Shown one piece after another: positions 2,972-28,894 of a DNA stretch of 31,389 nucleotides. The translations under genes and the position numbers were made by a program. Under the pieces are notes generated by a model that saw only the letters and a list, made by a program, of their open reading frames with translations, searched no databases and was not told the DNA's origin. The first letter of the stretch is position 1. Each line of letters begins with the position of its first letter. The stretch comes from Lachnospiraceae bacterium (GTDB lineage: Bacteria > Bacillota_A > Clostridia > Lachnospirales > Lachnospiraceae), in assembly GCA_009911175.1 (NCBI GenBank), contig QXWX01000081.1:1-31389 (forward strand), in the 5' to 3' direction.

Positions 2972-3000
2972 TACAATTCGGGACGGATTTTTACAATTCG
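2972..3000 (+). promoter_or_regulatory. Putative LytTR operator (9-bp direct repeat)
   Basis: TACAATTCG occurs twice, at 2972-2980 and 2992-3000, exactly 20 bp start to start. This matches the known layout of AgrA/LytTR-type sites: short direct repeats on one DNA face about two turns apart, just upstream of a promoter with a poor -35. A third, inverted and imperfect copy (AAAATTGTA, 3027-3035) overlaps the -10 region. The adjacent divergent LytTR regulator gene makes it the natural binder. The function is inferred from arrangement only. Confidence 0.6.
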
Positions 3001-3010
3001 TGCCACGGCT

Positions 3011-3039
3011 ATGGCAAAGAACAGTGAAAATTGTATACT
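3011..3039 (+). promoter_or_regulatory. Activator-type promoter of the large operon
   Basis: TATACT at 3034-3039 is a good -10. The hexamer 17 bases upstream (ATGGCA, 3011-3016) is a poor -35, as expected of a promoter that needs an activator. The direct repeat pair ends 10 bases before that -35. Transcription would start near 3046 and enter the STAS gene, whose AGGAGG (3080-3085) is 7 bases before its ATG. No terminator is evident before 28713, so this may drive the whole run of 13 genes. Confidence 0.5.
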
Positions 3040-3092: not shown

Positions 3093-3389
3093 ATGAACAT
3101 CATTAAAAACCAGACAGACAAATCGCTGAACATCGCTCTGGAGGGCAGGCTCGACACGACGACCGCGCCGGAGCTGGAGGCGGAATTAAAGCAGAGCATA
3201 GGCGACAGCGCCGAACTCAACCTCGATTTTGCAAAGCTGGAGTACTTATCATCGGCGGGGCTGCGCGTTCTGCTGGTAGCGCAGAAGATTATGAACAAGC
3301 AGGGGAAAATGGTTATCCGCAATGTCAACGACGTTATCTCCGAGGTGTTCGAGGTGACGGGATTTTCGGATATTCTGACCATTGAGTGA
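3093..3389 (+). CDS. STAS-domain anti-sigma-factor antagonist (SpoIIAA/RsbV-like)
   Basis: This is a 98-residue single-domain STAS protein. In partner-switching systems this family, when dephosphorylated, binds an RsbW/SpoIIAB-like kinase and releases that kinase's other partner; phosphorylation on a conserved Ser inactivates it. The phosphosite region is clear: 'LEYLSSAGLRVLL', with S53/S54 before Ala-Gly-Leu. It is the first gene of the operon with a strong Shine-Dalgarno. The matching phosphatase (9554-11170) and kinase (11167-11577) lie downstream on the same strand. No sigma factor is seen in the window, so the controlled partner may be encoded elsewhere or may be one of the transporter-fused ATPase-like domains. 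The family call is firm and the target is unknown. Confidence 0.93.
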   Translation: MNIIKNQTDKSLNIALEGRLDTTTAPELEAELKQSIGDSAELNLDFAKLEYLSSAGLRVLLVAQKIMNKQGKMVIRNVNDVISEVFEVTGFSDILTIE

Positions 3390-3427
3390 GTATTGATTTT
3401 TCCCGCGTTTTCAGGAGGAGGGAACTG

Positions 3428-5017
3428 ATGAATCGGGTTATAAAAAAGTACTGCATACATATCGCGCTGTGCTGGCTGGCGGTTTTGCTGTCCGTGTTTC
3501 TGACGCCGGGACTGTCGGTCCGGGCGGTGGAAACCGTAAACAACGGGGCGGAACCGGAAGCGTCAGAAGCTTCCGGTCAGGCGCAGCCGGAATACGGCAG
3601 TCTGGATGAGCTCACCGGAAAAAAAATCGGGATGATTACCGGATTTGATACGGTGTTAAAAGGCTCGCTGGGCCATGATAATACGTTTGTCTATTATCCG
3701 ACGACGACGGACGCAATCATTGCGCTGCAGAAAGACCGGGTGGACACTGTATGTGTGGATGAGCCGGTTGCGCGTCTGGCGGTCAGCGCAAACGAGGGGC
3801 TCTGTATCATGCCGGAAACTGTCGCCGAGGCGGAATACGGAATTGTTTTTCCCAAAAACAGCCCGTTTCTGGCCTCTTTTGACAGTGTGATAAAGCAGTT
3901 TTGGGAAGACGGTACGATAGAGGCTCTGGAAAAGAAATGGATGGATGGTGACGAAGAGGGAAAAGTGCTGATTCCCCGGGACTGGGAGGGGAAAAGCGGC
4001 ACGGTGCGCTATTACCACGACGCCACCTACAATCCGATGTGCTATATCGGCAAAGGCGGGGAGAGCGCAGGTTACGACCTGGACCTTGTGCTTATGGCGG
4101 CAAGAGAGCTGGACCTGAAGGTGGAAATGACGGTCTGCGATTACGACGCCCTTGTCCCGGCCATTCAAAGCGGAAAAGCGGATATTGCCAGCGGGTGTAT
4201 GGATATCACAGAGGAAAAGAAACAATATGTGGATTTTTCCGAGCCGTATTGCAGGAGCGCTGTGGTTCTGCTCACACGCGACAAAAATGCCGTAAAATCG
4301 ACGGAGAGTTTCGGGGCGCGGCTGCAGCAGAGTTTTTACAGTACCTTTATCGAGGAAAAACGCTGGCGGATGATTTTAGACGGGCTTGGCATTACCGTGC
4401 TGATTTCGGTGCTGTCCGGAATTTTCGGGCTGCTTATGGGGTTTGGCATATGTATGTTAAGGCGCATGAAGCCAAAACCCGCCAGACTGGGAGCCGCCGC
4501 GTATATCCGGCTGGTTCAGGGTATGCCTATCGTTGTGTTTTTGATGATTCTGTTTTACGTCATTTTCGGTTCGGTGGACATTTCCGGAATTGTGGTTGCG
4601 GTTATCGGTTTCTCAATCAATTTCAGCGCCTATACGTCGGAAATGATGCGGAACGGTCTGGAAACGGTGGAGAAGGGGCAGTCGGAAGCCGCTTTTGCGC
4701 TGGGGTACACAAGGTACCAGACTTTCTGGAAAATTGTGTTTCCGCAGGCGGCAATGCGTTTCCTTCCTGTATTAAAGGGAGAATTTATCTCGATGGTAAA
4801 AATGACCTCTGTCGTCGGCTATGTTGCGGTGCAGGACCTGACAAAGGCATCCGACATTATCCGTTCCCGTACGATGGACGCATTCTTCCCGCTGATTGCC
4901 ACGGCGGTGATTTATTTTATGGTCGCAAACCTTATGACCGGCATACTTACCTGCGCGGAGCGCAGGATTGACCCGAAACGCAGAAAGCGCGAGGTAAAGG
5001 GGGTGGAACCGCAGTGA
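3428..5017 (+). CDS. Fused ABC substrate-binding/permease protein, amino-acid type
   Basis: This is a 529-residue protein combining the extracytoplasmic receptor and membrane permease of a polar amino acid (HisM/GlnP-type) ABC transporter. I chose the ATG at 3428, which has AGGAGGAGG 6 bases upstream, over an earlier GTG inside the preceding stop. A signal peptide or anchor covers residues 1-32 (cleavage likely after 'SVRA'). Residues about 58-180 resemble the second lobe of SBP_bac_3 receptors ('GKKIGMITG', 'VDEPVA', '[14 protein letters not shown]'). Residues about 190-290 resemble the first lobe ('[10 protein letters not shown]', '[13 protein letters not shown]', 'DFSEPY'), so the lobe order is reversed. 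The permease domain (about 318-515, about five segments) has the ATPase-contact EAA loop '[20 protein letters not shown]'. The next gene, its ATPase, overlaps by 4 bp. The substrate is not certain. Confidence 0.9.
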
Positions 5018-6108
5018 TACGTGTCACACATTTACGGAAAGAGTACGGGTCGGTGACGCCGTTAAAGGATATCAACACCGAAATCAAAAAAGGAGAAGTC
5101 ATATCCATTATCGGCCCTTCCGGAACGGGCAAGTCCACGTTTCTGCGCTGCCTCAACCTGCTGGAGACGCCTACAGGCGGAGAGATTGTCATTGACGGGG
5201 AAAGGATTACGGATAAAGCATGTAAGATACATCTGGTCAGGCGGAAGATGGGGATGGTGTTTCAGGGGTTCCATCTGTTTTCCCATATGACGATGATTGA
5301 AAATATCATGGCGGGTCCGGTGGACCTGCTGCACAGGCCGCGCCGGGAAGCGTATGAGCGGGGCATGGAGCTGCTGCGTATGGTGGGGCTTGCGGACAAA
5401 GCGCAGGCTTTTGCCGACGAACTCTCCGGCGGGCAGAAGCAGCGGGCGGCCATTGCGCGTACCCTGTCCATGGAGCCTGAAATCATCCTGTTCGACGAAC
5501 CCACCAGCGCCCTGGACCCGACCATGGTGGGAGAAGTGCTTGCCGTTATACGTTCGCTGGCAGGGCAGGGGATGACCATGCTGATTGTGACCCATGAAAT
5601 GAAATTTGCAAGGGACGTGTCCACGCGCATCTTTTATATGGACCAGGGGGAGATTTACGAAGACGGGACGCCGGAACAGATTTTTGAACATCCCCGGCGG
5701 GAGCGCACAAAGCAGTTTATTCAGCGGCTGAAAGTATTTACCGCGTCGATAGACTCGAGGGATTTTGATTTTATCGGCATGAACAGCCGGATAGAAGAGT
5801 ACGGGCGCAGGCATCTGATTCCGCAGAAAATCATTTACCGTTTTCAGGAAATATTTGAAGAGCTGTGCGTGCAGATACTGCTGCCCTTACTGCCGGAGGA
5901 GGTTTCGGTACAGATGACGGCCGCATACTCGCAGGAACAGTCCTGTATGCAATTAAAGGTGCAGTATAACGGTCCTGCGTTCGACCCGGTGGATAGCGAC
6001 AACACGACGGCTCTGGCTCTTGTAAGACACGCGTCCGTGAAAATGGAATATCTCGGGTATTCCGGGGCGGAGGGGACGAATACGGTGGTTCTGGAGATTG
6101 AGGAATAG
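5014..6108 (+). CDS. Amino-acid ABC transporter ATPase with C-terminal RsbW-like extension
   Basis: This is the nucleotide-binding subunit for the upstream receptor/permease, starting at a GTG that overlaps the permease stop (GTGA). Residues 1-245 are a GlnQ/HisP-type ATPase: Walker [10 protein letters not shown] (34-42), signature LSGGQKQR, Walker B '[13 protein letters not shown]' and the H-loop 'THE'. GlnQ proteins usually end near residue 245, but this one runs to 364. The extra 120 residues look like a degenerate RsbW/HATPase_c_2 domain: an N-box-like 'IFEELCVQ' (280-287), a G1-like 'YNGPAFDP' (318-325) and a C-terminal '[11 protein letters not shown]'. The N-box Asn is Gln and the G1 Asp is Tyr, so ATP binding by this extension is doubtful. 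The end of the preceding MATE-like pattern 'GTNTV' recurs in the next gene's own extension. The domain assignment for the extension is mine and moderately sure. Confidence 0.88.
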
Positions 6109-6122
6109 CCGCAATTCGCGGC
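6108..6122 (+). other. Short hairpin after ABC ATPase gene
   Basis: GCCGC (6108-6112), loop AATTC, GCGGC (6118-6122) form a 5-bp GC stem right at the ATPase stop codon. There is no following T-run, so it is not a standard terminator. It sits in the widest gap of the operon (60 bases) and ahead of a weakly preceded ATG, so it might tune expression or mRNA processing. Function is unproven. Confidence 0.3.
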
Positions 6123-6168
6123 GGCCCTTTGAGAACCGTCAGTCTGAACAGGGAGCGAAGACATAGTA

Positions 6169-7899
6169 ATGGGTTTGGAACTTAAGCAGAACGAACTATT
6201 CCTCAAAAAAGCGTATAACAAGGCGCTGCTGCCCTGCGTGTTATCCGTTTTGAGCGGCAGCATCAACATACTTGCGGACGGTATTCTGGTAGGGCAAAAG
6301 CTGGGCACGAACGCTCTGGCGGCAATCAATTTCAGTCTGCCCGTGTATCTGGTATTGTGTATCGCGGGTTCGTTTATCGTGTCGGGAACGGCTGTCCGCG
6401 CCTCGGACGCCATCGGGAAAAACCGGAGCGGGCAGGCGCAGGAGCTCTACGGCATGGCGGTTTTCTGGTGTACAGCGGCAGCGGTTCTTATTACGGTTTC
6501 GGGGCTCGTCTTTCTAAAGCCCCTGTCGCTGGCGTTATGCTCTGACGAAAACGTAAGGCCGTTGGTGGCGGAGTATTCGGGGGTGACGATAGCGGGGGCG
6601 CTGCCGAAAATTCTCATCTACATACCGTTCTGGTTTTTGCGGCTGGACGGACGGAACGGTCAGGTCACGCTGATGATGCTTATCATGGGAGCCGGCAATG
6701 TGATTCTGGACGCGTTGTTTTTATATACTTTCGATATGGGAGTGTCCGGCGCGGCGCTGGCGAGCGTTTTAGCCACAGCCGCCGCGTGTGTTTCCGGATT
6801 TGCAAGGCTGTGCGATAAAAAGAGCGGATTTCAATTCGGATTCCGCATAAAAGCGAAGGGCGCGGCATTTTCGGAGGTTGCCAGAGCGGGAAGCCCGTCG
6901 GCGGCGAACAATCTTTTCCAGACGCTGCGCGTGACGGTCATAAACGCGCTGCTGCTTAGTTACTGCGGCAGTGAAACGGTAGCGGCTTTCACGGCGGTGA
7001 ACTGTATCTGCGCTTTTGCGGAAAGCGTAACGGGCGGCGTTCCTCAGGCGGCTTCAGCCATGCTCGGCATCTACAGCGGCGAACATGATAACGAGAGCGC
7101 GCGTCTTTTGATAAAACGGCAGCTGAAAAGCGGAATCCCGTGGGTCGCCGCCTTTTCCGCAGTGATTATCTCCGGCGCGGATTTGATTTCGAGGGCTTAC
7201 GGACTGAATATTTCCCTGAGATTTGCCTTTATCTGTCTGTCGTTTGGAATGATACCGGCGCTTATCAACTGTATTCTGTCAGGATTTTACAATGTTTCCG
7301 GGCGAAATATCTGGGCGAACTTCATCATATTCCTGCGCGTCTTTTCGGCCTCTTGCGCCAGCCTTTTTCTGCTTTTGGACTTCGGGCATAGTCCCTGGCT
7401 GTTTCTGTTTTTCGGGGAAATGGCAACGCTGATTTTCTGGTTCGCCGCGACGGGGATTTTTCACAGGCAGTCATCCCGTTTCCTGCTGCTGGACACTTCC
7501 CTCGAGCATTCGGGAAAGGTTATCAATTTCTCGGTAAACGGCGACGCGGAGAGCATTTGCAACGCTTCGGGAAAGATAACGGATTTTTGCGCGGACAACG
7601 GAATGTCGCCGAAGCAGACAATGAGAATCAGTCTTGCCCTTGAGGAAATTATGACCCTTATTTCAGTGAAAAACAAGAGCGCGGCCGGGTTCGACCTGCG
7701 CGTTTATTCCCTGCAGGGCGTTATCGGAATACGAATCCGGTATGGCGGAAACGAGTTTAACCCGCTTTTGTACGCGGACAACGACGAAGAGTATCTGGGC
7801 ATCCGCCTGATAGAGGGTATGTGCGAGCAGACGCTTTATCAGCGCACCTTCGGCACGAATACCGTACAGATTTTTGTGGAGGGAGGCGTTTGCGCATAA
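6169..7899 (+). CDS. MATE-family transporter with C-terminal degenerate RsbW-like domain
   Basis: This 576-residue membrane protein has about 12 hydrophobic segments in residues 15-435 in the NorM/DinF-like MATE pattern ('NILADGILVGQKLGTNALAA' near the start). MATE proteins export organic compounds using Na+ or H+ gradients. Usual MATEs end near 450 residues. Here about 130 more follow and resemble an RsbW-type ATPase: 'ISLALEEIMTLI' (487-498) in place of the N-box, 'YGGNEFNP' (525-532) in place of DxGxxFxP, and 'LGIRLIEGM' then 'FGTNTVQIFV'. The N-box Asn is Leu and the G1 Asp is Tyr, so it is probably not a working kinase. The Shine-Dalgarno is weak (GGAG about 13 bases upstream). Its TAA shares a base with the next gene's ATG. 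Confidence 0.9.
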   Translation: MGLELKQNELFLKKAYNKALLPCVLSVLSGSINILADGILVGQKLGTNALAAINFSLPVYLVLCIAGSFIVSGTAVRASDAIGKNRSGQAQELYGMAVFWCTAAAVLITVSGLVFLKPLSLALCSDENVRPLVAEYSGVTIAGALPKILIYIPFWFLRLDGRNGQVTLMMLIMGAGNVILDALFLYTFDMGVSGAALASVLATAAACVSGFARLCDKKSGFQFGFRIKAKGAAFSEVARAGSPSAANNLFQTLRVTVINALLLSYCGSETVAAFTAVNCICAFAESVTGGVPQAASAMLGIYSGEHDNESARLLIKRQLKSGIPWVAAFSAVIISGADLISRAYGLNISLRFAFICLSFGMIPALINCILSGFYNVSGRNIWANFIIFLRVFSASCASLFLLLDFGHSPWLFLFFGEMATLIFWFAATGIFHRQSSRFLLLDTSLEHSGKVINFSVNGDAESICNASGKITDFCADNGMSPKQTMRISLALEEIMTLISVKNKSAAGFDLRVYSLQGVIGIRIRYGGNEFNPLLYADNDEEYLGIRLIEGMCEQTLYQRTFGTNTVQIFVEGGVCA

Positions 7900-9557
7900 T
7901 GAAAACGGATTACGGAAGACTCGGCGGCGAAGCACTCAAACGTCTTGAAGAGTCGGCGCAAGGGGCGGACGCGACGCAGACAAAATTCCTTCTTGACTGG
8001 CTTAACGAAAACAAAGACACCGAATTCGGCAAGCGGCATGGCTTTGCGCAGATAAATTCTCCCTGGGAATATCAGGACAAAGTGCCTCTTTTTAGCTACG
8101 AGGATTATGCCCGGGACATCGAGCGCATTATAGACGGTGAAAAAAATATTCTGACCGCGCGCGACGCCGTATATTTTTGCGTAAGCTCCGGTACTGTCAG
8201 CGATGAAAAATATATTCCCCTTACCGGATACGACCTCGAAGCCCATTATATTTTTATGTACGGCGCGGTTTTCGGGCAGATTCGCGATTACTATAAGGAA
8301 TTAAGCGAAAAGGATATTTTCGGAAAGATATTCCAGACGGGAGAATTCGCGAAGACATATATGCCAGACGGGAGAATGAGCGGAATACGCTCGAGCTGCG
8401 TGTATCAGTGGCTCGATGAAAACGGCGGGTTTGACGCGTCCGATTACTGCGTTCCGAAAGAGATTTTGTTTCCTGAAACGCCGGAGGATAAATTGTATCT
8501 CAAGGTGCGCTTCGCCCTTGCGGAGCGCAATATTACCGCGATACACGGCGTTTTCATCAACCGCATTGCGGGGGTGACAGAGTACATTCTCCACAACTGG
8601 GAGCTGCTGTTAAACGACATCGAATACGGTACGGTAAGCGTGGAGATTCCCGAAGAGCAAAGGCGGTATATTGCAGGGAAGCTGCCGCCGGACCCCGAAC
8701 GGGCGGGGGAATTGCGGAGGATTCCGCGTGAGAATCTGTCTGACGGAATCATCGGAAAAATCTGGAAAAATGTGAAATATATTCTCGCCATAGGGGGCGA
8801 CTGCTTTTCTTATTATACCGGAAAAATGCGCGGTTACGCAGGGGATATTCCGCTGCACCATTTTGTTTACGCCGCCTCGGAGGGAGTTTTCGGGCTGGCG
8901 GAGCATGTGGATTCACCAGACAGGTATATGCTGCTGCCCGAATCGGTTTTTTTTGAATTTATGCCCGTCGGCGAGGATAAAAGGCCGCTGCTTATGGGCG
9001 AGGTGGAGATTGGCGGAAAGTATGAGCTTATCGTCACCAACCGTTCCGGGCTTTACCGTTACAGGCTCGGCGATGTGGTGAGGGTCGTGGGAAGGCACAA
9101 AAAAGCGCCGGTCGTAAAATTCTGCTACCGGCGGAACCAGGTAATAAATGTTGCGGGGGAGAAAAGCAACCGGCAGCAGCTTGATACGGCGGTAAAGCGG
9201 TTCGCCGGGCTGACGCGGACCGAGGTCGTCGAATACTGTGTCCGCGAGGACTTTTCGGGTATCGCGCCGGGATATTTGTTTTATATGGAGTGCAGAAACG
9301 CTCCACGCAACGTCGCCGGGATATTTGAAAGATGTATGTGCGAGGCAAATCCGGAATACAGAGCGTGCCGGAACACGCGGGAAATCAAGCCGCTGCGCAT
9401 CGAGTATCTCCGTGAAGGCAGCTTTAAGCGCTACGAGAGGATGCTTGCCGAAAGCGGCAGGGAGATGGCGCAGAGCAAAATACCGCATTTTCTGAACACG
9501 GAGGAAAAGAAAAAATTTTTTGCGGCGCAGGTCATGGGCGGGGAGGAAAAAGTATGA
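7899..9557 (+). CDS. GH3-family acyl acid-amido synthetase
   Basis: This 552-residue protein belongs to the GH3 family, first known from plant auxin and jasmonate metabolism. These enzymes activate a carboxylic acid with ATP and join it to an amine, often an amino acid. All three nucleotide motifs are visible: 'SSGTVSDEKYIPL' (from residue 96), 'YAASEG' (324-329) and 'YRYRLGDVV' (386-394). I set the start at 7899 (MKTDYGRL) because it overlaps the MATE stop as TAATG; the longer open frame upstream lies within the MATE gene. The stop overlaps the following phosphatase gene by 4 bp. Beside an NRPS it could make a building block or cap the product with an amide. Substrates cannot be read from the sequence. 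Confidence 0.9.
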   Translation: MKTDYGRLGGEALKRLEESAQGADATQTKFLLDWLNENKDTEFGKRHGFAQINSPWEYQDKVPLFSYEDYARDIERIIDGEKNILTARDAVYFCVSSGTVSDEKYIPLTGYDLEAHYIFMYGAVFGQIRDYYKELSEKDIFGKIFQTGEFAKTYMPDGRMSGIRSSCVYQWLDENGGFDASDYCVPKEILFPETPEDKLYLKVRFALAERNITAIHGVFINRIAGVTEYILHNWELLLNDIEYGTVSVEIPEEQRRYIAGKLPPDPERAGELRRIPRENLSDGIIGKIWKNVKYILAIGGDCFSYYTGKMRGYAGDIPLHHFVYAASEGVFGLAEHVDSPDRYMLLPESVFFEFMPVGEDKRPLLMGEVEIGGKYELIVTNRSGLYRYRLGDVVRVVGRHKKAPVVKFCYRRNQVINVAGEKSNRQQLDTAVKRFAGLTRTEVVEYCVREDFSGIAPGYLFYMECRNAPRNVAGIFERCMCEANPEYRACRNTREIKPLRIEYLREGSFKRYERMLAESGREMAQSKIPHFLNTEEKKKFFAAQVMGGEEKV

Positions 9558-11170
9558 AAAGGTTCACCGGAATAGCGGGCAGGCTTACGGCGGGAGTAAT
9601 TCTGTTCGGATTGCTGCTGGGGGCGGTATGCAGTACGGTCGGCTATATCGAGTTTACCGCAGTGCTGGAACAGCAGTATAACGATTCGGCATACGAGATA
9701 GCGGAGACGGCGAGGGAAATTTTAAATCCCGACAAATTCGAACAATATCTGGAAACGGGGCGGACCGACGAGGAGTATGACAATATTCTGGCCATATTAG
9801 ACACGCTCACCGACGCGGCGAACGTAACGTTCATATACGTCGCAAAGGTGAGCGGCGACTACAGGACGCTTACCTATATTTACGATACGGTAAATTCGGA
9901 CACGGAGTTTGAGCGCTATCCCTTAGGCTACACGGCCTCCGACCTTGATGAAAAGCACACCGAAAACGTTGTGAAAATCATGACGAAGGGCGGACGCGCC
10001 GAAAAGTACCTGTACTCCTATTCAAAGGAATCGGGGGCGCACACTACCGCGGCAATCGATGTGAAAAACTCGGACGGAAAAATAATCGCGATGCTTTGCG
10101 TTGAAAAGCCGATGACGCGCCTTGAGGCCGCGCGCAACACCTACGTTCTGCACGTTATTTTGTGGACGCTCACGGCGATAGTCCTGTTTATTATTGTGTA
10201 CTCGGTGATACTGCGCCGCGGGATTATCAAACCCATCAAAACTCTCACAAAAGAGGCGGAGCGGTTTGCAAAGACGAATCTGCCGTCAGGAGAGCCCATT
10301 AATATCAGGCAGAAGGACGAGGTCGGGATTCTCGCGCGGGCAGTCGAAAAGATGGAAACGGATATCGCAAGATACACCGAAAACCTCACCGTTATCACCG
10401 CCGAAAAGGAACGTGTCAACACGGAGCTGTCTGTTGCGACGCGTATTCAGGCGAATATGCTGCCGAGTATTTTCCCCGCCTTTCCCAACAGGAAGGAGTT
10501 TGATATTTTCGCCACCATGAATCCCGCAAAGGAGGTGGGAGGCGATTTCTACGATTTCTTTATGGTGGACGAACGCCACCTTGCCATCGTGATGGCGGAC
10601 GTTTCCGGAAAGGGCGTTCCCGCGGCGCTGTTTATGGTCATCGGCAAAACGCTGATAAAGGACCATACATGGCCGGGAAAAGACTTGGGCAGCGTGTTTG
10701 ACGAGGTCAACGAACTGCTCTGTGAAAGCAACAGCGAGGGCTTGTTTATCACCGCTTTCGAGGGGGTTCTCGATTTGGTGAGCGGCGAATTCCGCTTTGT
10801 GAACGCGGGACATGAGATACCGTATATCTGTAAAAAGAACGGGAAATTCGAGCCCTACAAAATCCGTGCGGGGTTCGTTCTTGCGGGCATGGAGGGGATG
10901 CGCTACAAATGCGGGGAAATGCAGTTGGAGGCGGGCGATAAGATATTCCAGTACACGGACGGCATCACCGAGGCCGCCAACGTGCGGATGGAGTTGTACG
11001 GAATGGACCGGCTGACGGCAGTACTGGGCGAGAATTCCGATTTGCCGCCCGGCGAACTGCTCCCCGCAGTCAAAAGGGATATCGATAACTTTGTGGGAGA
11101 AGCACCGCAGTTTGACGACATCACAATGCTGTGTCTCGAATACAGGGCGCGAATGGAGGCTTTATCATGA
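9554..11170 (+). CDS. Membrane SpoIIE/RsbU-type Ser/Thr phosphatase with HAMP domain
   Basis: This is a 538-residue receptor phosphatase. One membrane segment lies at about 8-32, an extracytoplasmic sensor region at about 33-192 (Cache-like by size and position), a second segment at about 196-218, a HAMP linker at 219-275, then a short coil and a PP2C/SpoIIE domain from about 310 to 530. Metal-binding motifs are intact: 'VGGDFYD' (G329-D334), 'ADVSGKG' (D349) and 'FDDITML' (D521/D522). RsbU/SpoIIE phosphatases remove phosphate from STAS antagonists, and the obvious substrate is the operon's first product (3093-3389). The downstream RsbW-like kinase overlaps by 4 bp. So an outside signal could be read here and turned into the phosphorylation state of the STAS protein. 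Confidence 0.94.
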   Translation: MKRFTGIAGRLTAGVILFGLLLGAVCSTVGYIEFTAVLEQQYNDSAYEIAETAREILNPDKFEQYLETGRTDEEYDNILAILDTLTDAANVTFIYVAKVSGDYRTLTYIYDTVNSDTEFERYPLGYTASDLDEKHTENVVKIMTKGGRAEKYLYSYSKESGAHTTAAIDVKNSDGKIIAMLCVEKPMTRLEAARNTYVLHVILWTLTAIVLFIIVYSVILRRGIIKPIKTLTKEAERFAKTNLPSGEPINIRQKDEVGILARAVEKMETDIARYTENLTVITAEKERVNTELSVATRIQANMLPSIFPAFPNRKEFDIFATMNPAKEVGGDFYDFFMVDERHLAIVMADVSGKGVPAALFMVIGKTLIKDHTWPGKDLGSVFDEVNELLCESNSEGLFITAFEGVLDLVSGEFRFVNAGHEIPYICKKNGKFEPYKIRAGFVLAGMEGMRYKCGEMQLEAGDKIFQYTDGITEAANVRMELYGMDRLTAVLGENSDLPPGELLPAVKRDIDNFVGEAPQFDDITMLCLEYRARMEALS

Positions 11171-11577
11171 AGGAACTTACAGTTGATGCCACAATTGAGA
11201 ACATCGCCGCGGTGACTGATTTTGTGAACGGGCAGTTAGAGAGGCTCGGCTGCCCTTTGAAAACGCAGATGCAGATTGACATCGCCATTGACGAACTGTT
11301 CGGGAACATAGCAAGCTACGCCTACAGCCCCGATACCGGCAAGGCTACCGTGCGCGTTGAGGATACCGAAAATCCTCCCGCCGTGGAGATTACCTTTATC
11401 GACAGCGGCGTGCCCTACGACCCTCTTGCAAAGGAAGAGCCCGATATTACGCTTTCCGCGCAGGAGCGGCCAATCGGCGGCCTGGGGATTTATATGGTCA
11501 AAAAAACCATGGATGATATCAGTTATGAATACAAAGAGGGTCAGAATATTTTAAAAATCAGAAAGGAAATCCGGTAA
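11167..11577 (+). CDS. RsbW/SpoIIAB-like anti-sigma-factor serine kinase
   Basis: This is a 136-residue single-domain HATPase_c_2 protein. Its key residues are complete: N-box 'IDELFGN' with N47, G1 box 'DSGVPYDP' with D79, and G2-like 'GGLGIYMV' (104-111). I chose the ATG at 11167 because it overlaps the phosphatase stop by 4 bp; an upstream in-frame ATG lies inside that gene. Such kinases phosphorylate a STAS antagonist and bind a sigma factor or another target when the antagonist is phosphorylated. It therefore completes a kinase-phosphatase-antagonist set with 3093-3389 and 9554-11170. The partner it holds is not in the window, unless it is one of the transporter-fused domains. Confidence 0.93.
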   Translation: MKELTVDATIENIAAVTDFVNGQLERLGCPLKTQMQIDIAIDELFGNIASYAYSPDTGKATVRVEDTENPPAVEITFIDSGVPYDPLAKEEPDITLSAQERPIGGLGIYMVKKTMDDISYEYKEGQNILKIRKEIR

Positions 11578-13601
11578 TGATGAAAAAGACGGGTAGGAAA
11601 AATGTATTTTGGGTTATGCTTGCGGCGGCTGCCATAAGCATAACGGGCTGCGGGGCGGCAGGACGTGCGCAGCTTAACGCGGACGTCAAGGAGGCGACAG
11701 AGGACACGAGGGAAACGAACGCCTCCGTGTACGAGCTGCTTGATTTCAGCGACGAGCGGGAGAAGGAGTTTGCGCAGCGCGGATTCCTGCGGGCCCCTGA
11801 AACGCTCACAATAAAATCGGAAAACGGCGGCACGGTATGGAGCCAGGATATCTACGACTTCGTCAGGAATGCCGAAGCCCCCGATTCGGCCAATCCGAGT
11901 CTGTGGAGAAACACACAGCTCAACGCCCTTTATGGGCTTTACGAGGTGGTTGACGGCATCTATCAGGTCAGAGGCTATGACATTGCAAACGTCACATTTA
12001 TCAGGGGAGATAAGGGCTGGATTATTTTTGACTGCGGTACGGGCGTTGAAACGGCGGCCGCGGCGCTTAAGCTTTTTGAGGAGGAATTCGGAGAGGCTCA
12101 CATTTCGGCGATTGTCATAAGCCATGCGCACGTTGACCATTACGGCGGCGTCGGAGGGCTTGTCAGCGGAGAGCAGATTGCCGACCCCGCTTTGGCGCTC
12201 GACGAACAGATAGCTTCCGGGAAAACGCTTCTTATCGTTCCGGAAGGTTTTGAGACTGCCGCCATGGAGGAAAACGTACTGGCGGGAAACGCTATGAAGC
12301 GCCGCTCAAACTACCAGTACGGCTCGCTCATTCCCAAGGGGGAAAACGGCGGTCTTTCGGTGGGAATCGGCCTTACCATCTGCGCGGGAACCACGTCGTA
12401 CTACACGCCCTCCTATGAGGTTACGGAAGAAACGGAGGAAATTACGGTAGACGGGGTCAGGATGGTATTTCAACTTACGCCCGGCACGGAGTCGCCTGCG
12501 GAGATGAATACCTATCTTCCCGACTACAAAGCGCTCTGGATGGCTGAAAACTGCACGGCGACAATGCATAACATTTACACGCTGCGCGGTGCGGAAATAA
12601 GAAACGCGGGAGCCTGGGGCGACTACATCATGAAGGCGAACGCGCTTTTCGGCGGCGACGCACAGGTCGTTTTCCAGTCCCACAACTGGCCTCACTGGGG
12701 AAACGAGGTCATTGGCGAATATATGCTGAATACCGCCGCCATATACCGTTATATCCATTCACAGACGCTTCAGTATATCAACGAGGGCTATACCTCCACG
12801 GAAATCGCCAATATGATAGAACTGCCGGCAGAGTTGGAAAAGGTCTGGTATACAAGACAGTACTACGGCACGCTTGCGCATAACGCCAAAGCGGTATATC
12901 AGAAATATATGGGCTGGTACGACGCAAACCCGATTCATCTTGCGGAGCTTGCCCACTCGGAGTATGCCCGAAAGCTTGTGGAATATCTGGGCGATATCGA
13001 CAAGATACTGGAGAAAGCAAGAGCCGACTTCGACGCCGGAGAATATCAATGGGTAGCGGAGCTTACAAGCGCCATCGTATATGCGCAGCCCGATAACCGG
13101 GAGGCGCGGTATCTGTGCGCGGACGCGCTTGAGCAGCTCGGTTATCAGGCCGAATCAGGGGCGTGGCGCAACGCGTATCTTACAGGCGCGTATGAGCTTC
13201 GTCACGGAACCGGCGATTATCCCGACACTTCCATAGGCGGTTCCGGGGCCGCTTCCATGGAGATGAGCACGGAAACGATGCTGGATTATCTCGCAATGTG
13301 CCTGGATTCCAAAAAAATCGAGGATAAAAACTTTGTCGTAAATCTGGAGGTGACCGACGAAAATGAGAGATATCTGCTGCGGATACGCCACGGCGTCCTG
13401 CTCTATGCAAAAGAGGAATGGAGCAATGAGGCGGACGCGGTAATCAGACTCAAGCGCGCGGGACTCATGGGGATTGCCAGAAACAACGAGGCAATCATGA
13501 AAAACACGATTGAATCGGTTGAAGGGCAGGAGGATATTCTGGATATCTTCACCGATAATCTGGCACAATTTGAACCGTATTTCAATATCATCGAGCCGTA
13601 G
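11577..13601 (+). CDS. Alkyl-sulfatase-like metallo-beta-lactamase-fold lipoprotein (SdsA/YjcS type)
   Basis: This 674-residue protein is exported and lipid-anchored: a basic N-terminus, a hydrophobic stretch, then lipobox 'SITGC' with C25. The zinc site HxHxDH is H183/H185/D187/H188 ('SHAHVDHYGG'), with further conserved histidines at H331 and in 'HNWPHWG' (H369, H373). The 'YTLRGAEIRNAGAWGDYI' stretch, the middle dimer-type region and a C-terminal SCP2-like part (about 555-670) match type III alkyl sulfatases, which hydrolyse linear alkyl sulfate esters. The start shares a base with the preceding stop (TAATG). Surface location would fit trimming of an exported product or of a host sulfated lipid. 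The exact substrate is unknown. Confidence 0.87.
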   Translation: MMKKTGRKNVFWVMLAAAAISITGCGAAGRAQLNADVKEATEDTRETNASVYELLDFSDEREKEFAQRGFLRAPETLTIKSENGGTVWSQDIYDFVRNAEAPDSANPSLWRNTQLNALYGLYEVVDGIYQVRGYDIANVTFIRGDKGWIIFDCGTGVETAAAALKLFEEEFGEAHISAIVISHAHVDHYGGVGGLVSGEQIADPALALDEQIASGKTLLIVPEGFETAAMEENVLAGNAMKRRSNYQYGSLIPKGENGGLSVGIGLTICAGTTSYYTPSYEVTEETEEITVDGVRMVFQLTPGTESPAEMNTYLPDYKALWMAENCTATMHNIYTLRGAEIRNAGAWGDYIMKANALFGGDAQVVFQSHNWPHWGNEVIGEYMLNTAAIYRYIHSQTLQYINEGYTSTEIANMIELPAELEKVWYTRQYYGTLAHNAKAVYQKYMGWYDANPIHLAELAHSEYARKLVEYLGDIDKILEKARADFDAGEYQWVAELTSAIVYAQPDNREARYLCADALEQLGYQAESGAWRNAYLTGAYELRHGTGDYPDTSIGGSGAASMEMSTETMLDYLAMCLDSKKIEDKNFVVNLEVTDENERYLLRIRHGVLLYAKEEWSNEADAVIRLKRAGLMGIARNNEAIMKNTIESVEGQEDILDIFTDNLAQFEPYFNIIEP

Positions 13602-13612
13602 GGAGGATTGTT

Positions 13613-15358
13613 ATGAAAAATTATTTGAAGAAAACCGGTGTAGGCCTTGCAGCCCTGTTGTGCGCAGGGCTTTGCAGTTTGACAGGATGCGCGGGAGGCG
13701 CGGAGAAAGGGGCGGCGGTATATCATTCCGAAACCGGCTATACCGCCGAGAAAATCACCCACCCCGAAAAGGGCGTGAAAGAAATCGACGGAATCGTAGA
13801 CTATATGGGGAACGGCACGATGGGAACGGGTCTCGGGACGGGCGACCGCGGGCAGAATTATTCCTGGGGCTCCATCGGGTACGGAGATTATATGTATATC
13901 GGCACCTGCTACGGAGCGTGGATGAATACCCTTACATTTATGAAGACGGCGCTCGGGCGGGAGTTTGACGACGACGTGATGAAGGCGGCGTTAGAGGAAT
14001 ATTATCACGGAGAGCTTTACACCTCCGAGCCTGACGGGGCGGAGGCCCTTGGCATACTCGTAAAGCTGAACGTGAAAACCGGCGAATCGAAAATACTGAT
14101 GTCGAAAGCCGATACAGGACAGAACACGATTTTCCGTAACGCGGTGGAGCTGAACGGACGGCTGTATTTTTGCGGCGCGGTAAACGCTCTGCCCGTAATC
14201 TATGAGGTGAATCCCGAGACAGACGAATGCAAAGAGGTATATGCGGGAATGACCATGGAGGAATATAAGGAAGCGTTTATGAAGGGGTATTCCGTGGGGA
14301 TAAGGGGAATCTGCGTTTTTGAAGACAGGCTTATCGTAAGCTGTATCAATTCGGACGGCGCGGTTATTCTTGAATCCGAAAATCCCTCCGAGCCGGACTC
14401 CTTTAAAGTCATTGCCGACGATGAAAAGCTTTTCGGCTATCCGGCCTATCGCTTCTGCGACAGTATTTACGGCGGTTCTATTTTTGACATGACAGGATTC
14501 CGGGACAGCCTGTATGTAACCATCTGCACCGGGACTCCGGAAAACGCCTCTGACAGGGATACCATGCAGTCCTTCGCAATGGTGCGTGGAGACCTTTCGG
14601 AAAACGGCGAATGGGTGTGGAACAGTGTTATCGGAGATAAAGAGGAAGACGGCGCGAAGTACACTTTCGGGATTGACCCGCAGCGGACGAGAAGCGGCGC
14701 GGCAAATCTGCAGGTTTTCGGCGATTATCTTTACATCGGGGAATATAACGATGAGGAAATCGCCGTGGAAAGAATGCTGTTCGATAATGATTTCACATTT
14801 ATGAACAAGAATTTCGAACAGCCTGTGAATCTCTACCGTATGGATAAGAATGAGGAGATAGAGCTCATTGTGGGGGATGCGGACGAAATGTTTCCGGACG
14901 GCGGGTTATCCGGTTACGGCTCCGGCTTCGGATGCAGCGAAAATCAGTATGTGTGGAAAATGACGGTATATGACGGGAAGTTTTATGTAGGCACCTATGA
15001 CGCGAGCAGCTTTCTGATTCCGTTAGACGAGTATATGAACGACAAGAACGCGTCGGAGGAATGGAAGAGCCGCGTTGACGGTTACATAAAAACTCTCTGC
15101 GCGGATTACAGCGGCGTTCCTCAAAGCGCGGTGACCTGCGCCGAATATCTGGATAAAGCGGTTTTTGGCTTTGACCTTTATGTGACGGAGGACGGAGTCA
15201 ACTTCACCAAAATCACCGACAACGGTTTCGGAGACCCGTATAACCACGGTCTGCGGGCGTTCGGAATCACCTCCGGGGGACTGTATATCGGCACGGCGAA
15301 TCCGTTTTACGGCACGCAGGTGTGGAAATTGACGGAAGAGACAGAGAAACGCAAATAG
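13613..15358 (+). CDS. Secreted lipoprotein of unknown function, probable beta-propeller
   Basis: I do not recognise a named family. The 581-residue protein has a lipoprotein signal (lipobox 'SLTGC', C26) and a good GGAGG ribosome binding site, 11 bases after the sulfatase-like gene. It contains repeated short blocks of the form 'G-x-LY-x-G-T', for example 'GDYMYIGT', 'GRLYFCGA', 'DSLYVTIC', 'DYLYIGEY', 'GKFYVGTY' and 'GGLYIGTANPF', spaced irregularly about 60-110 residues apart. This is typical of beta-propeller blades. No catalytic motif is evident. It is probably surface-exposed and may bind a ligand, or work with the neighbouring sulfatase-like lipoprotein or the phosphatase's sensor domain. 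Confidence 0.85.
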   Translation: MKNYLKKTGVGLAALLCAGLCSLTGCAGGAEKGAAVYHSETGYTAEKITHPEKGVKEIDGIVDYMGNGTMGTGLGTGDRGQNYSWGSIGYGDYMYIGTCYGAWMNTLTFMKTALGREFDDDVMKAALEEYYHGELYTSEPDGAEALGILVKLNVKTGESKILMSKADTGQNTIFRNAVELNGRLYFCGAVNALPVIYEVNPETDECKEVYAGMTMEEYKEAFMKGYSVGIRGICVFEDRLIVSCINSDGAVILESENPSEPDSFKVIADDEKLFGYPAYRFCDSIYGGSIFDMTGFRDSLYVTICTGTPENASDRDTMQSFAMVRGDLSENGEWVWNSVIGDKEEDGAKYTFGIDPQRTRSGAANLQVFGDYLYIGEYNDEEIAVERMLFDNDFTFMNKNFEQPVNLYRMDKNEEIELIVGDADEMFPDGGLSGYGSGFGCSENQYVWKMTVYDGKFYVGTYDASSFLIPLDEYMNDKNASEEWKSRVDGYIKTLCADYSGVPQSAVTCAEYLDKAVFGFDLYVTEDGVNFTKITDNGFGDPYNHGLRAFGITSGGLYIGTANPFYGTQVWKLTEETEKRK

Positions 15359-15368
15359 GATTCATCAG

Positions 15369-15380
15369 GTAAAATTTTAC
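15369..15380. other. Perfect 12-bp palindrome
   Basis: GTAAAATTTTAC lies between the lipoprotein stop and the acyltransferase start, next to a G-rich ribosome binding site (GGGGGA, 15381 onward). It could be a protein binding site or chance; no promoter hexamers flank it convincingly. Confidence 0.3.
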
Positions 15381-15392
15381 GGGGGACGATAT

Positions 15393-16469
15393 ATGTCAAA
15401 AAATATTATCAGGAAAAGCCGGCGGATTGAAACGATTGACATCGCAAAGGCAATCACCATATTCTGCGTGATACTGGGACACACCACAGGGAATCTCGAT
15501 GCGCCCATGTTCCGCAGGGTTCTCTACGCGTTTCATATGCCGCTTTTCTTTTTTCTGGCGGGGCTTTCCATAAAGCCGAAAGCGGTGCAGGGTTTCAGGG
15601 GATGGGGCGCGTTTCTGTACAAAAATGTTCTGGCTCTGATGGCCCCTTATTTCGTCTGGGGGCTGGTTTACGCGCCTTTTTCCTACCCGGATATGGGAGC
15701 TCTTTTTTACGGCTCCTGGGAAGCGCTTAACCGCATGGAAACGCTGACTTCGCTGTGGTATCTGCCGTGCTTTTTCATTTCCCGCGTGCTGGTTCAGATT
15801 GTCGTCAATATTGCCGGATACGCAAAGGTAAAGAACATGCCGCTCTGGTGCGGGATATGCGCGCTGCCGCTGCTTGCGGCCGGGCTTTTGCTTCCGCACG
15901 GCGAAAACGGCGTCCTGTGGTGTGCGGATATCGCGCTTGCGGCGGGCGGATTCATCCTTCTGGGAATCGCGGTCAGGAAATCCTGTCTGGTTATGGCGCA
16001 GCAGAAAACGCTCTGGCTGATACTGTCCTTTATCGGCAGTCTGCTCCTGTTTTGCGCGGGAACGGTTTTCCGGGGCGAGGGACTGGCGCTTTCACTGATG
16101 TGCAAAAGCGATTACGGAAACCGGCTGTGGTTTCTGTACAACAGCGTTTTCGGCAGTCTGGCAGTGCTGACCGTATCCATGCTGATTTCACGGCTGTCGC
16201 GGGAATCGGCGCGGCCCTTTAAGATAGATGCGGTTACCTGTATCGGGCGGCAGACAATGGGCATTTATCTGCTTCACAAGCCCTTTCTGCAGCAGGTGAT
16301 TCTGCCCGCGCTGTCGGGGATTTTTCCCGGGGATTTCCCGTTTCTCGCTATTGCGCTTATGGGGAGTATCCTGGCGCTGTTGTTCAGCATTGCGATGTGT
16401 TATATCATCGGGAAATTTATACCCCAGCTTTTGGGGCGTTTCCCGCGCAACGAATGGGCAAAGGGTTGA
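15393..16469 (+). CDS. Membrane acyltransferase, acyltransferase-3 family
   Basis: This 358-residue protein has about ten hydrophobic segments and the Acyl_transf_3 hallmarks: 'RIETIDIAKAITIFCVILGH' with the conserved His (H30), then 'FHMPLFFFLAGLS'. Members (for example OafA/NodX relatives) move acetyl or other short acyl groups onto sugars, lipids or peptides at the membrane. The context between two secreted lipoproteins and a MATE exporter, upstream of the NRPS, would fit acylation of the exported product or of a surface glycan. The acceptor cannot be read from sequence. It starts with ATG 7 bases after GGGGGA. Confidence 0.9.
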   Translation: MSKNIIRKSRRIETIDIAKAITIFCVILGHTTGNLDAPMFRRVLYAFHMPLFFFLAGLSIKPKAVQGFRGWGAFLYKNVLALMAPYFVWGLVYAPFSYPDMGALFYGSWEALNRMETLTSLWYLPCFFISRVLVQIVVNIAGYAKVKNMPLWCGICALPLLAAGLLLPHGENGVLWCADIALAAGGFILLGIAVRKSCLVMAQQKTLWLILSFIGSLLLFCAGTVFRGEGLALSLMCKSDYGNRLWFLYNSVFGSLAVLTVSMLISRLSRESARPFKIDAVTCIGRQTMGIYLLHKPFLQQVILPALSGIFPGDFPFLAIALMGSILALLFSIAMCYIIGKFIPQLLGRFPRNEWAKG

Positions 16470-16519
16470 GAGAGCAGGCGGCGGATGTACGTCTGTGAAG
16501 AGTATTGGAGGAATGCATA

Positions 16520-18262
16520 TTGGAAAGAAAAAGTTATATTGTCAGCCAGCAGTTTACTAAATTTTTTATACCCACCATACTGATGACCATGGCGCTATCC
16601 ATGAGCATTGTCATAGACGGGATGATTGTCGGCAATATTCTGGGACCGGAGGCGCTGGCGGCCGTCAATCTGGTGCTTCCGGTCACCCTGATTTTCAATT
16701 CGCTGTATGTGCTGTTCGGCGTGGGCGGTTCCGCGCTGTATTCGGTGGCTTTAGGGCGGAGGGAAAAGGAGCGCGCGCGGCAGTTCTTTACAGTCTCGCT
16801 GGCCGCAATGCTGGCGGCATCCCTTCTCGTTTTGTCCGGCGGCCTGTTTTTGTGCGGCGGTATTTCGGAAGCGCTGACAAAAAACGCCCCCAACCTGACG
16901 GAGCCGGTTTACGATTATTTAAGTATTGTGATGCTGGCGGCGCCTCTGCTTATCGTGGTTCCGGGGCTTGTGTATTTTATCCGCTCGTCGGGAAACGTGC
17001 GGACGGCGTCAGCGGCGCTGATTACGGCCAATGTCGTCAATCTTCTTCTGGACCTGGTGTACATAGGCGGGCTGAACATGGGGATAAAAGGAGCCGCGCT
17101 TGCCACGGGCACCGGATATTTTACAGGACTGCTGATTGCCCTTTACGGCGTGTTCCGCTGTGAAACGCTGAAACCGGAGGCGGTTTCGGCACCCGCCGCC
17201 GTCAGTCTGCTGAAGGAGACCGTCTCCACGGGTCTTCCCAATACCATCAACACGGTTTTGAATTTTTTCCGGCTCACATGTATCAATGCCATTGTCATGA
17301 TGTATCTGGGGAGCAGCGGGGTGACGGCCTTTTCCGTGTGCACATCCTGTCTGTCCATTGTATCCATGTTCGTGGGCGGTTCCGCGCAGACGATGGGGCC
17401 CCTTCTGGGCACTCTCTATGGAGAGGGAGATACCAGAGGCGTCCGTTTTGCGGTGAAGAAGGCGGTCTGTATCACGGGGATTTCCAGTCTGATACTGCTG
17501 GCCTTATTTGAGATATTTCCCGGGCAGATTACGGGAATGTTCGGCGTCTCCGACGCAGGACAGACAGCTGTGGCGGTGGAGGCTCTCCGGATTTATGCCT
17601 GGAACCTTCCGGTCATGGGAATTTTATTTGTCGCCATGTGCGTGTACCCGATTCTGGGATTTAAGAAGCTGTCCGGCTTTATTGCCTTGCTGGAAGGCTT
17701 TCTGCTCGTCGTTCCGGCGGCATGGCTGCTGGCGGGGGCGTTTGGTTCGGCCGGAATCTGGGCGGCTTTTCCGGCAGGGGAATTCGGCACGCTTCTCATT
17801 CTTTTCCTGCTCACGGGAAGAATCCGGAAGAAACAACCCCGGGTGCACGGGCTGTTTCTGCTGGAAAAGGAGCAGAAGAAAAATGTGCTGGACGTGACTA
17901 TGATTCAGGAGGTTTCCCAGGCGGTCGCCTTGTCGGAGAGGGCCATTGGTTTCTGCAGGGAAAACACAGTACCGGAGATAACGGCCAATAAAGTGGGGCT
18001 GGCTCTGGAGGAGATGGCGGTTAATATCATAAATCAGAAGAAAAAAGGGCGGAAGCAAAGCTATATAGACGTAAGGATTACCATAGGCGAGAATCATATC
18101 TGCATCAGCGTCCGGGATAACGGCGCGCCTTATCATCCGTTTTTGCAGGAAAGCGCGGACGGAGATTTCGACAATATCCGCATGGTCCTTGCGATTACAG
18201 ACGAGGCGGCTTATGACTATATTCTGGGAATGAACAGCTCCATTTTGAAAATCTGTATATAA
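16520..18262 (+). CDS. Second MATE transporter with C-terminal intact RsbW-like ATPase domain
   Basis: This protein has about 580 residues from a TTG at 16520, chosen because GGAGG (16507-16511) lies 8 bases upstream and no in-frame ATG is near. Residues about 10-440 form a MATE transporter of about 12 segments ('IVIDGMIVGNILGPEALAAVN'). Residues about 450-580 form an RsbW/HATPase_c_2-type domain. Unlike in the first MATE and the ABC ATPase, its motifs are complete: N-box 'LALEEMAVNII' with N502, G1 box 'RDNGAPYHP' with D533, and a C-terminal 'LGMNSSILKI'. The domain may therefore bind ATP and phosphorylate a STAS protein. It is a candidate exporter for the NRPS product. The MATE call is firm; the link between the domain and transport is inferred. 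Confidence 0.9.
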   Translation: MERKSYIVSQQFTKFFIPTILMTMALSMSIVIDGMIVGNILGPEALAAVNLVLPVTLIFNSLYVLFGVGGSALYSVALGRREKERARQFFTVSLAAMLAASLLVLSGGLFLCGGISEALTKNAPNLTEPVYDYLSIVMLAAPLLIVVPGLVYFIRSSGNVRTASAALITANVVNLLLDLVYIGGLNMGIKGAALATGTGYFTGLLIALYGVFRCETLKPEAVSAPAAVSLLKETVSTGLPNTINTVLNFFRLTCINAIVMMYLGSSGVTAFSVCTSCLSIVSMFVGGSAQTMGPLLGTLYGEGDTRGVRFAVKKAVCITGISSLILLALFEIFPGQITGMFGVSDAGQTAVAVEALRIYAWNLPVMGILFVAMCVYPILGFKKLSGFIALLEGFLLVVPAAWLLAGAFGSAGIWAAFPAGEFGTLLILFLLTGRIRKKQPRVHGLFLLEKEQKKNVLDVTMIQEVSQAVALSERAIGFCRENTVPEITANKVGLALEEMAVNIINQKKKGRKQSYIDVRITIGENHICISVRDNGAPYHPFLQESADGDFDNIRMVLAITDEAAYDYILGMNSSILKICI

Positions 18263-18289
18263 AAATCTTAAGAAAGAGGAGAATGGCGT

Positions 18290-28848: not shown

Positions 28849-28894
28849 AAAAATATAAGGACAGTCGGCCGGCGGACGGATGAAAGGAGAAGCT

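Follow-up and report, generated by a model that had tools for sequence, protein, structure and literature searches.

RsbW-like domains on three transporters of a Lachnospiraceae peptide-synthesis operon, and a candidate partner switch acting on transport

Three transport proteins encoded in one operon of a Lachnospiraceae bacterium, an ABC ATPase and two MATE transporters (MATE1 and MATE2), each end in an RsbW-like domain. The genes of a switch lie in the same co-directional run of overlapping or closely spaced genes, which holds no sigma factor, and all partner-switching parts are present: a STAS protein with its serine, a PP2C-type SpoIIE phosphatase and a HATPase kinase with a complete ATP site. 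Partner switching is best known as sigma-factor control. Judging from sequence, we give even chances to the reading that this operon is a partner-switching module with the transporters themselves as targets. The DNA analysed, called the window below, is a stretch of 31,389 nt (GCA_009911175.1, contig QXWX01000081.1, positions 1–31,389, forward strand), and the host operon is a peptide-synthesis (NRPS) operon of a gut bacterium.

All features of the operon lie on the forward strand. A direct repeat (TACAATTCG, at 2972–2980 and 2992–3000 of an element spanning 2972–3039) and a promoter-like hexamer pair (3011–3039) directly before the STAS gene are consensus matches only. The single-domain STAS protein (3093–3389, 98 aa; Pfam STAS, E = 3e-13) has a phosphorylatable-type serine, Ser54 in LSSAGL, at what we take, after SpoIIAA/RsbV, to be the phosphorylated position, and the equivalent serine is present in 60 of the 61 distinct STAS sequences of the loci. 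Its gene overlaps by 4 bases that of an amino-acid-type binding protein–permease fusion (3386–5017; SBP_bac_3 and BPD_transp_1), followed by the GlnQ-like ABC ATPase (5014–6108; Pfam ABC_tran at residues 17–165, with Walker A, LSGGQ and DEPTSALD), MATE1 (6169–7899; Pfam MatE, E = 5e-16), a GH3-family acyl-adenylate/amido synthetase-like enzyme (7896–9557; Pfam GH3, E = 1.7e-57) and a HAMP-SpoIIE phosphatase of PP2C type with a hydrophobic N-terminal part (9554–11170; SpoIIE E = 5e-43, HAMP E = 6e-6), in which GDFYDF, ADVSGKG and DDITML are presumably the metal-site Asp motifs. The stand-alone RsbW-like kinase (11164–11577; Pfam HATPase_c_2, E = 2.7e-20) has all ATP-site motifs, including ENDG and GGLG. 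Downstream lie an alkyl-sulfatase-like metallo-beta-lactamase-fold protein assigned by Pfam (11577–13601) and a 581-aa protein with no Pfam family above cut-off (13613–15358), both with a lipoprotein-like start by eye, then a membrane acyltransferase (15393–16469; Acyl_transf_3), MATE2 (16505–18262; Pfam MatE, E = 3e-28), an adenylate-forming enzyme that we take to be of the ‘PaaK’ type (18290–19654; AMP-binding E = 1.3e-6, 27.9 bits against a cut-off of 29.9) and, by domain scan, an NRPS with three A, two C and three carrier domains and a terminal reductase (NAD_binding_4; 19651–28713).

The initial annotation had placed a C-terminal RsbW-like domain on all three transporters, and this is borne out by structure prediction for the ABC tail (5731–6105) and by profile comparison for the tails of MATE1 (7504–7896) and MATE2 (17876–18259). 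The Pfam model PF13581 scored MATE2 above its cut-off of 27.4 bits (36.7 bits; HATPase_c_2, E = 4.9e-9) and MATE1 below it (15.8 bits, or 20.0 for the extension alone), and did not match the ABC extension; comparison of the latter with RsbW gave 34% with 12 close sequences and 96.6% with a wider set. A sequence search of the PDB with the MATE2 extension returned no match at E ≤ 1, so structure was needed. The whole ABC ATPase was also modelled, but a PDB search with that model would have been swamped by ABC ATPases, and the extension was therefore folded by itself for this comparison. The predicted fold matches SpoIIAB, RsbW and UsfX, and the ABC extension is in this model a Bergerat-type fold with RsbW topology; profile comparison indicates that both MATE extensions share the RsbW-like fold. 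Alignment A1, for the ABC ATPase, contains 11 of 13 matches, leaving out P0121, a fragment of the window protein itself, and P0122, whose extension is identical; alignments A2 and A3 contain 43 and 29 sequences, each from the 120 matches listed. The domain tree is built on few columns, with 60 of its 136 inner branches open, and its row L345_HK_136_240 is mislabelled, being really an ABC-type copy on a short chain.

The three domains differ in their ATP sites. MATE2 retains Glu502, Asn507, Asp538 and Gly540 with a reduced G2 glycine loop, whereas the MATE1 and ABC extensions keep the N-box Glu and have lost both Asn (to Leu and Gln, respectively) and the G1 Asp (to Tyr in both). These losses are general: Asn and Asp are each found in 0 of 120 MATE1 family members among the matches listed, and in 0 of 18 ABC extensions as read from the alignment. 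Hence the earlier description of the domains as of the anti-sigma kinase type stands for MATE2 and is too strong for MATE1 and the ABC ATPase. Of the transporter domains, that of MATE2 may have serine kinase activity on STAS. Such activity would also fit transporters acting as sensors, with the intact MATE2 domain a tethered STAS kinase whose activity reports on the transport cycle or on substrate load, the output lying elsewhere, for example in expression or enzymes. The MATE2 family does retain the residues (of 89 sequences, 88 have the Glu, 76 the Asn and 86 the Asp), and all three are kept in 85 of 124 distinct MATE extensions. However, the G2 loop, which reads GGG in 32 of 33 stand-alone kinases, is not retained in MATE2, the MATE1 and ABC copies cannot fit, and no output gene is evident, so that we regard the sensor reading as unlikely. 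The MATE1 extension is conserved like the membrane part (mean top-residue share 0.787 versus 0.804 over the 120 sequences listed), although Asn and Asp are gone, which speaks for the transporters as targets.

With the transporters as targets, the switch may work as follows. An outside signal would set the activity of SpoIIE, which would remove the phosphate from STAS; unphosphorylated STAS would then dock, on the cytoplasmic side, on the RsbW-like domain carried by the amino-acid importer and by each of the two exporters, and alter the activity of these transporters. STAS would be phosphorylated again, and thereby released, by the stand-alone RsbW and perhaps also by the intact domain of MATE2, while the degenerate MATE1 and ABC domains would be receivers, able to bind STAS and unable to phosphorylate it. 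In this way the uptake of precursors and the export of the finished NRPS peptide would be controlled together. Whether the phospho-switch acts on transport or uses the transporters as sensors, we infer it from gene order and domain state.

The initial annotation had held that homologues always lacking STAS or SpoIIE neighbours would refute its reading, which is not what the counts show: 58 of 118 MATE fusions had a STAS or SpoIIE gene within 8 kb, compared with 12 of the 93 plain MATEs (p = 1.5e-8, Fisher test). With long and cut frames removed, the plain set gave 6 of 76 (p = 4e-10), and with tails found by any profile the counts were 60 of 122 fused versus 10 of 89 plain. Because the sets consist of related sequences, 50%-identity clusters were also compared, counting any member, and gave 27 of 54 fused versus 9 of 54 plain (p = 4e-4). 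MATE frames shorter than 380 aa were left out, as were sequences duplicating another in their first 300 residues, and four loci (L251–L254) are in none of the sets. The 40 control MATE regions, hand-picked among the matches listed (one or two per genome, from 30 of 35 genomes searched), gave 41 MATE frames, the open frames being mostly of 440–500 aa; the order set comprised 50 fused and 27 plain loci (51 and 28 before more sequence was added). Five of the seven ‘plain’ named MATEs with STAS/SpoIIE were misclassified, three being cut frames (L034, L068, L090) and two having a tail found by the tail profile only (L042, L049), and under strict rules 2 of 13 ‘plain’ named MATEs had STAS or SpoIIE. 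Two candidate separators were rejected: degenerate domains do not significantly mark switch-linked loci (20 of 33 degenerate versus 38 of 85 intact MATE domains, p = 0.15), and genome-wide STAS number gave no clean separation of fusion from non-fusion genomes, STAS genes being present in 40 of 40 chosen genomes, 17 without a fusion match included. The presence of NRPS condensation-domain neighbours was independent of the extension: in the named set they lay near 48 of 68 fused and 19 of 25 plain loci, in the order set near 5 of 50 fused and 1 of 27 plain, and in the controls near 0 of 41.

Against the transporters as targets stand the fusions that lack a nearby switch gene: in the available sequence up to 8 kb away, neither STAS nor SpoIIE accompanies 60 of the 118 MATE fusions and 32 of 44 ABC fusions, and for 21 of those 32 ABC fusions the total flank is at least 10 kb. 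Separately, three genomes with ABC fusions have a STAS gene at the edge, inside 8 kb and cut by the region in G095 and just past 8 kb in G330 and G452. Relatives of the RsbW-like domain form dimers, and the extension could be a structural or dimerising module unconnected with STAS, which only helps the transporters to assemble or contacts some other partner, for example a carrier domain or an adenylating enzyme. The unaccompanied fusions fit such a module, as do the nucleotide site gone in many copies and related RsbW-like fusions to AMP-ligase, GNAT-like and HD-CE domains. That STAS/SpoIIE genes are more frequent next to MATE fusions than next to plain MATEs tells against it, as does a compact operon combining the switch with two fused importers, and we consider it improbable. 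This operon has four genes, for STAS, SpoIIE-RsbW, an SDF symporter with an RsbW-like N-terminus and a binding protein–permease–ATPase–RsbW-like chain, and is present in L323, L324, L328 and L329 (last gene broken in L329). Its SDF N-terminal domains escaped the RsbW profile at E = 1e-4; their assignment comes from profile–profile comparison.

The stand-alone RsbW and the STAS protein of the window are classical by sequence, which would also suit ordinary sigma-factor switching, the kinase holding a sigma factor encoded elsewhere and the transporter domains being decoys or relics. No cognate sigma gene lies beside the kinase: a Pfam scan of 15 window proteins gave no sigma family, and neither did our own sigma profile match in the window, a profile that recovers 30 of 30 known sigma loci, although these were part of the sequence from which it was built. 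In the nearest genome, G001, where STAS, sigma and HATPase genes were counted, one of two STAS genes adjoins HATPase_c_2 and sigma factor genes and the other is in this operon, and 0 of 36 Sigma70_r2 matches are on the contig of this operon. Sigma genes were near 3 of 68 and 2 of 50 fusions, compared with 2 of 41 controls. Among further fused loci shown from L251–L254, a sigma gene is nearby in two of three and STAS or SpoIIE in two of three; the MATE1-type L253 and L254 have both within 8 kb, in favour of a sigma output, and the L254 sigma gene looks ECF-type and lies ∼2 kb from STAS. On the other side, four archaeal genome bins with MATE fusions all had TFIIB and gave no Sigma70_r2 match, and in three of the four the fusion lies near STAS, SpoIIE and RsbW; these records are mostly metagenome bins, and thus misplaced contigs are possible. 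Together with a MATE1 extension as conserved as the membrane core, these counts make sigma-factor switching very unlikely here.

Beyond this operon, we put at somewhat below even the chances that anaerobic bacteria and some archaea share a general way of controlling transport, in which single-domain STAS proteins, set by SpoIIE/RsbW pairs, would dock on RsbW-like ‘receiver’ domains fused separately to MATE exporters, ABC importers and SDF symporters, the kinase site decayed in many and the domain conserved. The anti-sigma fold would then serve as a docking module, with transporters among its targets, whether or not the organism has sigma factors. The switch kinase fold is found on three unrelated transporter superfamilies, in the four-gene run of four genomes and in archaeal bins without sigma-70 matches. 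If the transporters are targets, phosphorylation would directly control both secondary and primary transport; this would explain the role of some STAS/SpoIIE/RsbW sets without a sigma partner, and offer a handle on the export of gut and rumen nonribosomal peptides.

The window shares with RsbU/RsbV/RsbW and SpoIIE/SpoIIAA/SpoIIAB a PP2C-type phosphatase, a single-domain STAS protein with conserved Ser and a HATPase kinase; unlike them, it shows no sigma factor and has RsbW-like domains on three transporters, two of which are without the ATP-site Asn and Asp. A precedent for STAS control of an ABC ATPase is MlaFB, where, in the available parts of the report, MlaB acts on MlaF with the C-terminal ATPase extension taking part; phospho-mimicry at STAS Thr52 lowered binding in pull-down, while its authors had no evidence of Thr52 phosphorylation (PMC7367683). 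In the window the link between a STAS protein and an ABC ATPase is one of gene order. For MlaFB, those parts call the MlaF portion an elongated extension rather than an RsbW-like domain, in another transporter class (PMC7367683). The non-sigma switches BtrUVW (PMC8256260) and SiaABCD (PMC9239204) consist of these three kinds of protein and act, for example, on type III secretion or a c-di-GMP enzyme, and the sections available describe no transporter with an RsbW fold. In the archaeon Methanobrevibacter ruminantium M1 (mru0066–0071), NRPS clusters likewise include serine phosphatases, an anti-sigma factor antagonist and a MatE exporter; the accessible text assigns these regulators to sensing and NRPS expression, not transport control, and mentions no RsbW-like domain on MatE (PMC2812497). 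Among the matches listed in open-licence PMC, no title or abstract opening described RsbW-like domains fused to transporters. The MATE fusion does appear in automated annotation, under the name ‘Na+-driven multidrug efflux pump/anti-sigma regulatory factor’, and thus the architecture itself is already visible in databases.

The operon of the window comprises 13 + strand genes spanning 3093-28713, whose neighbours overlap or stand at most 60 bases apart. A single STAS protein (start at 3093) is followed by a binding protein-permease fusion, an ABC ATPase with a tail (an extra RsbW-like domain at the transporter's end), the transporter MATE1 with a tail, a GH3 enzyme (7896-9557), a HAMP-SpoIIE phosphatase, a stand-alone RsbW, an alkyl-sulfatase-like protein, a 581-aa protein with no family assigned, an acyltransferase, MATE2 with a tail, an enzyme that we take to be PaaK-like, and an NRPS of 3020 aa that comprises three A domains, two C domains, three carrier domains and, at its end, a reductase (end of the gene at 28713). 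GH3-type enzymes recur next to such modules, and the archaeal locus L109 has two copies at 15805-19282.

Tails of the MATE2 type carry Glu502 in 88/89, Asn507 in 76/89, Asp538 in 86/89 and Gly540 in 83/89 sequences. Among the matches listed, MATE1-type tails have the Glu in 120/120 and the Asn and the Asp in 0/120 each, and in ABC tails, read off the alignment, the Glu is invariant and Asn and Asp each occur in 0/18. All ATP-site residues are present in the stand-alone RsbW proteins of the loci (33/33) and in SpoIIE-fused RsbW (9/9), and 85 of the 124 distinct MATE tails combine Glu, Asn and Asp. Conservation of the MATE1 tail is 0.787 versus 0.804 for the membrane part, with 46/122 and 150/426 positions, respectively, at 98% or more. 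Judging from sequence, two of the three tails, those of MATE1 and the ABC ATPase, both lacking Asn and Asp, are thus conserved but probably non-catalytic. The initial annotation had called all three tails anti-sigma kinase type; the RsbW-like fold stands, and we file them under that name only, because the ATP site is incomplete in two of the three and no sigma partner was found in the operon. A domain tree placed 69/70 MATE tails in one group (SH-aLRT 91) and the ABC tails in a separate one (SH-aLRT 92), neither branch being starred and both groups standing apart from most stand-alone RsbW proteins. This suggests that MATE and ABC tails arose by separate fusions, and perhaps lost their ATP sites separately as well.

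A length sufficient to contain the tail (at least 560 aa) was found in 119/120 MATE1 and 88/120 MATE2 homologues among the matches listed, and 13/13 ABC-tail matches carry ABC_tran. Within the order, the MATE2 profile matched 61/392 genomes, tail present or absent, and the ABC-tail profile 38/392, a few of these being MATE tails or short frames. By record title, fused MATEs among the named loci occur across Bacillota and in Bacteroidota (L038), Spirochaetota (L051), Synergistota (L068, L076, L080), Actinomycetota (L053), Thermodesulfobacteriota (L042, L049; here the tail profile alone detected the tail) and, among archaea, methanogens (L052, L067, L104, L109). Four Bacteroidales loci (L105, L106, L108, L110) have a plain MATE, without tail, and STAS plus a SpoIIE-RsbW fusion about 9 kb off, a comparable gene set in which the MATE is not fused.

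The initial annotation had suggested looking for such fusions beside STAS genes in other genomes, and STAS or SpoIIE genes do accompany many of them. They lay within 8 kb of 58/118 fused MATEs (named set 43/68, order set 15/50) versus 12/93 plain ones (Fisher p=1.5e-8), the latter made up of 7/25 in the named set, five of these seven being cut frames or profile-missed tails, 1/27 in the order set and 4/41 chosen controls; for strictly plain MATEs the count was 6/76. The difference held for order-set fused MATEs against order and control plain MATEs (15/50 vs 5/68, p=0.002) and for 50%-identity clusters with any such member (27/54 fused vs 9/54 plain, p=4e-4). Counting against a switch that acts on transporters, 32/44 ABC fusions had neither gene within 8 kb and 12/44 had STAS or SpoIIE; among these 32, the total flank is 10 kb or longer in 21, and in three genomes with ABC fusions (G095, G330, G452) a STAS gene sits at the edge of the range.

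Sigma genes were found within 8 kb of 3/68 (named) and 2/50 (order) fused MATEs and 2/41 controls. Outside these sets, L253 and L254 have, within 8 kb of a fused MATE, both a sigma gene and STAS and/or SpoIIE; L254 holds STAS, SpoIIE, RsbW, a fused MATE, a fused SDF symporter and an ECF-like sigma. In the genome nearest to the window, the sole other STAS gene is part of a set of the SpoIIA type that has a sigma factor of its own. The archaeal genome bins that carry MATE fusions contained TFIIB in 4/4 and Sigma70_r2 in 0/4; provided that these contigs are correctly binned, a sigma-70 factor cannot be the target of the switch. In L052, L104 and L109 the MATE has STAS, SpoIIE and RsbW all within 8 kb; within the same distance, L067 has NRPS genes and neither STAS nor SpoIIE was found. 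The L109 contig also carries ribosomal protein genes that look archaeal by eye, and the other three contigs are possibly misplaced in their bins.

The RsbW-like domain is also borne by other proteins. SDF symporters carry it N-terminally in L043, L044, L200 and L345, where the RsbW profile detected it at E<=1e-4, and in L254, L323, L324, L328 and L329, where it was assigned by profile comparison (98.1% to RsbW); eight N-terminal pieces entered that comparison, the one from L200 not being among these. One-chain binding protein-permease-ATPase importers also end in it, and L323, L324, L328 and L329 run STAS, SpoIIE-RsbW, fused SDF symporter and fused importer; genes 1 and 2 overlap in the last three, the genes otherwise lie no more than 42 bases apart, and the last gene of L329 is broken. 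GNAT-like proteins with N-terminal HATPase_c_2 stand beside or near MATE fusions, assigned by Pfam in L038, L041 (GNAT part below cut-off) and L052 and by the tree in L045. An AMP-ligase 8 bases from a MATE fusion (L211, 5974-7977, - strand) has a C-terminal HATPase_c_2 match below cut-off (E=9e-5). MATE genes of 884-889 aa in L222, L226 and L227 have one more domain after the RsbW-like one, and in L227, the one scanned with Pfam, the RsbW-like domain lies between MATE and HD-CE. L345 (6008-8318) encodes the SDF symporter and then a 240-aa chain in which a binding-protein-like start is joined to an RsbW-like domain; this may be a shortened importer.

STAS resides in the cytoplasm, and the C-termini of MATE transporters, the N-termini of SDF symporters and the ABC ATPases all face it. 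We infer docking of STAS on the tails, its sign and its effect on transport as follows: the N-terminal/HAMP part would drive SpoIIE, SpoIIE would generate unphosphorylated STAS, and this would dock on transporter-borne RsbW-like domains and alter transport, until RsbW, and possibly MATE2's own domain, reversed the docking. According to excerpts of PMC7367683, the STAS protein MlaB can act on the ABC ATPase MlaF, and a phospho-mimic at MlaB Thr52 weakens their contact. Partner-switch outputs besides sigma release are already known (excerpts of PMC8256260, PMC9239204, PMC10120452), and titles and abstract openings of the papers listed yielded no description of RsbW-like transporter fusions. According to excerpts of the M. 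ruminantium genome paper (PMC2812497), serine phosphatases flank an NRPS gene, together with an anti-sigma factor antagonist and a MatE exporter. That cluster shares NRPS, phosphatase and MatE with the window; however, its authors read the regulators as sensing and control of NRPS expression, whereas we propose control of transport.

Adjoining the operon, a GHKL histidine kinase and a LytTR response regulator (798-2848, - strand) form an AgrC/AgrA-like pair. A 9-base direct repeat at 2972/2992, which resembles a LytTR site, precedes the STAS gene, with a promoter-like pair directly behind it. By eye, a fragment at 40-591 (+ strand) resembles a VapE/primase-type mobile-element protein, and a 120-aa frame at 28880-29242 (+ strand) resembles the start of a GH29 alpha-L-fucosidase and is probably a truncated gene.
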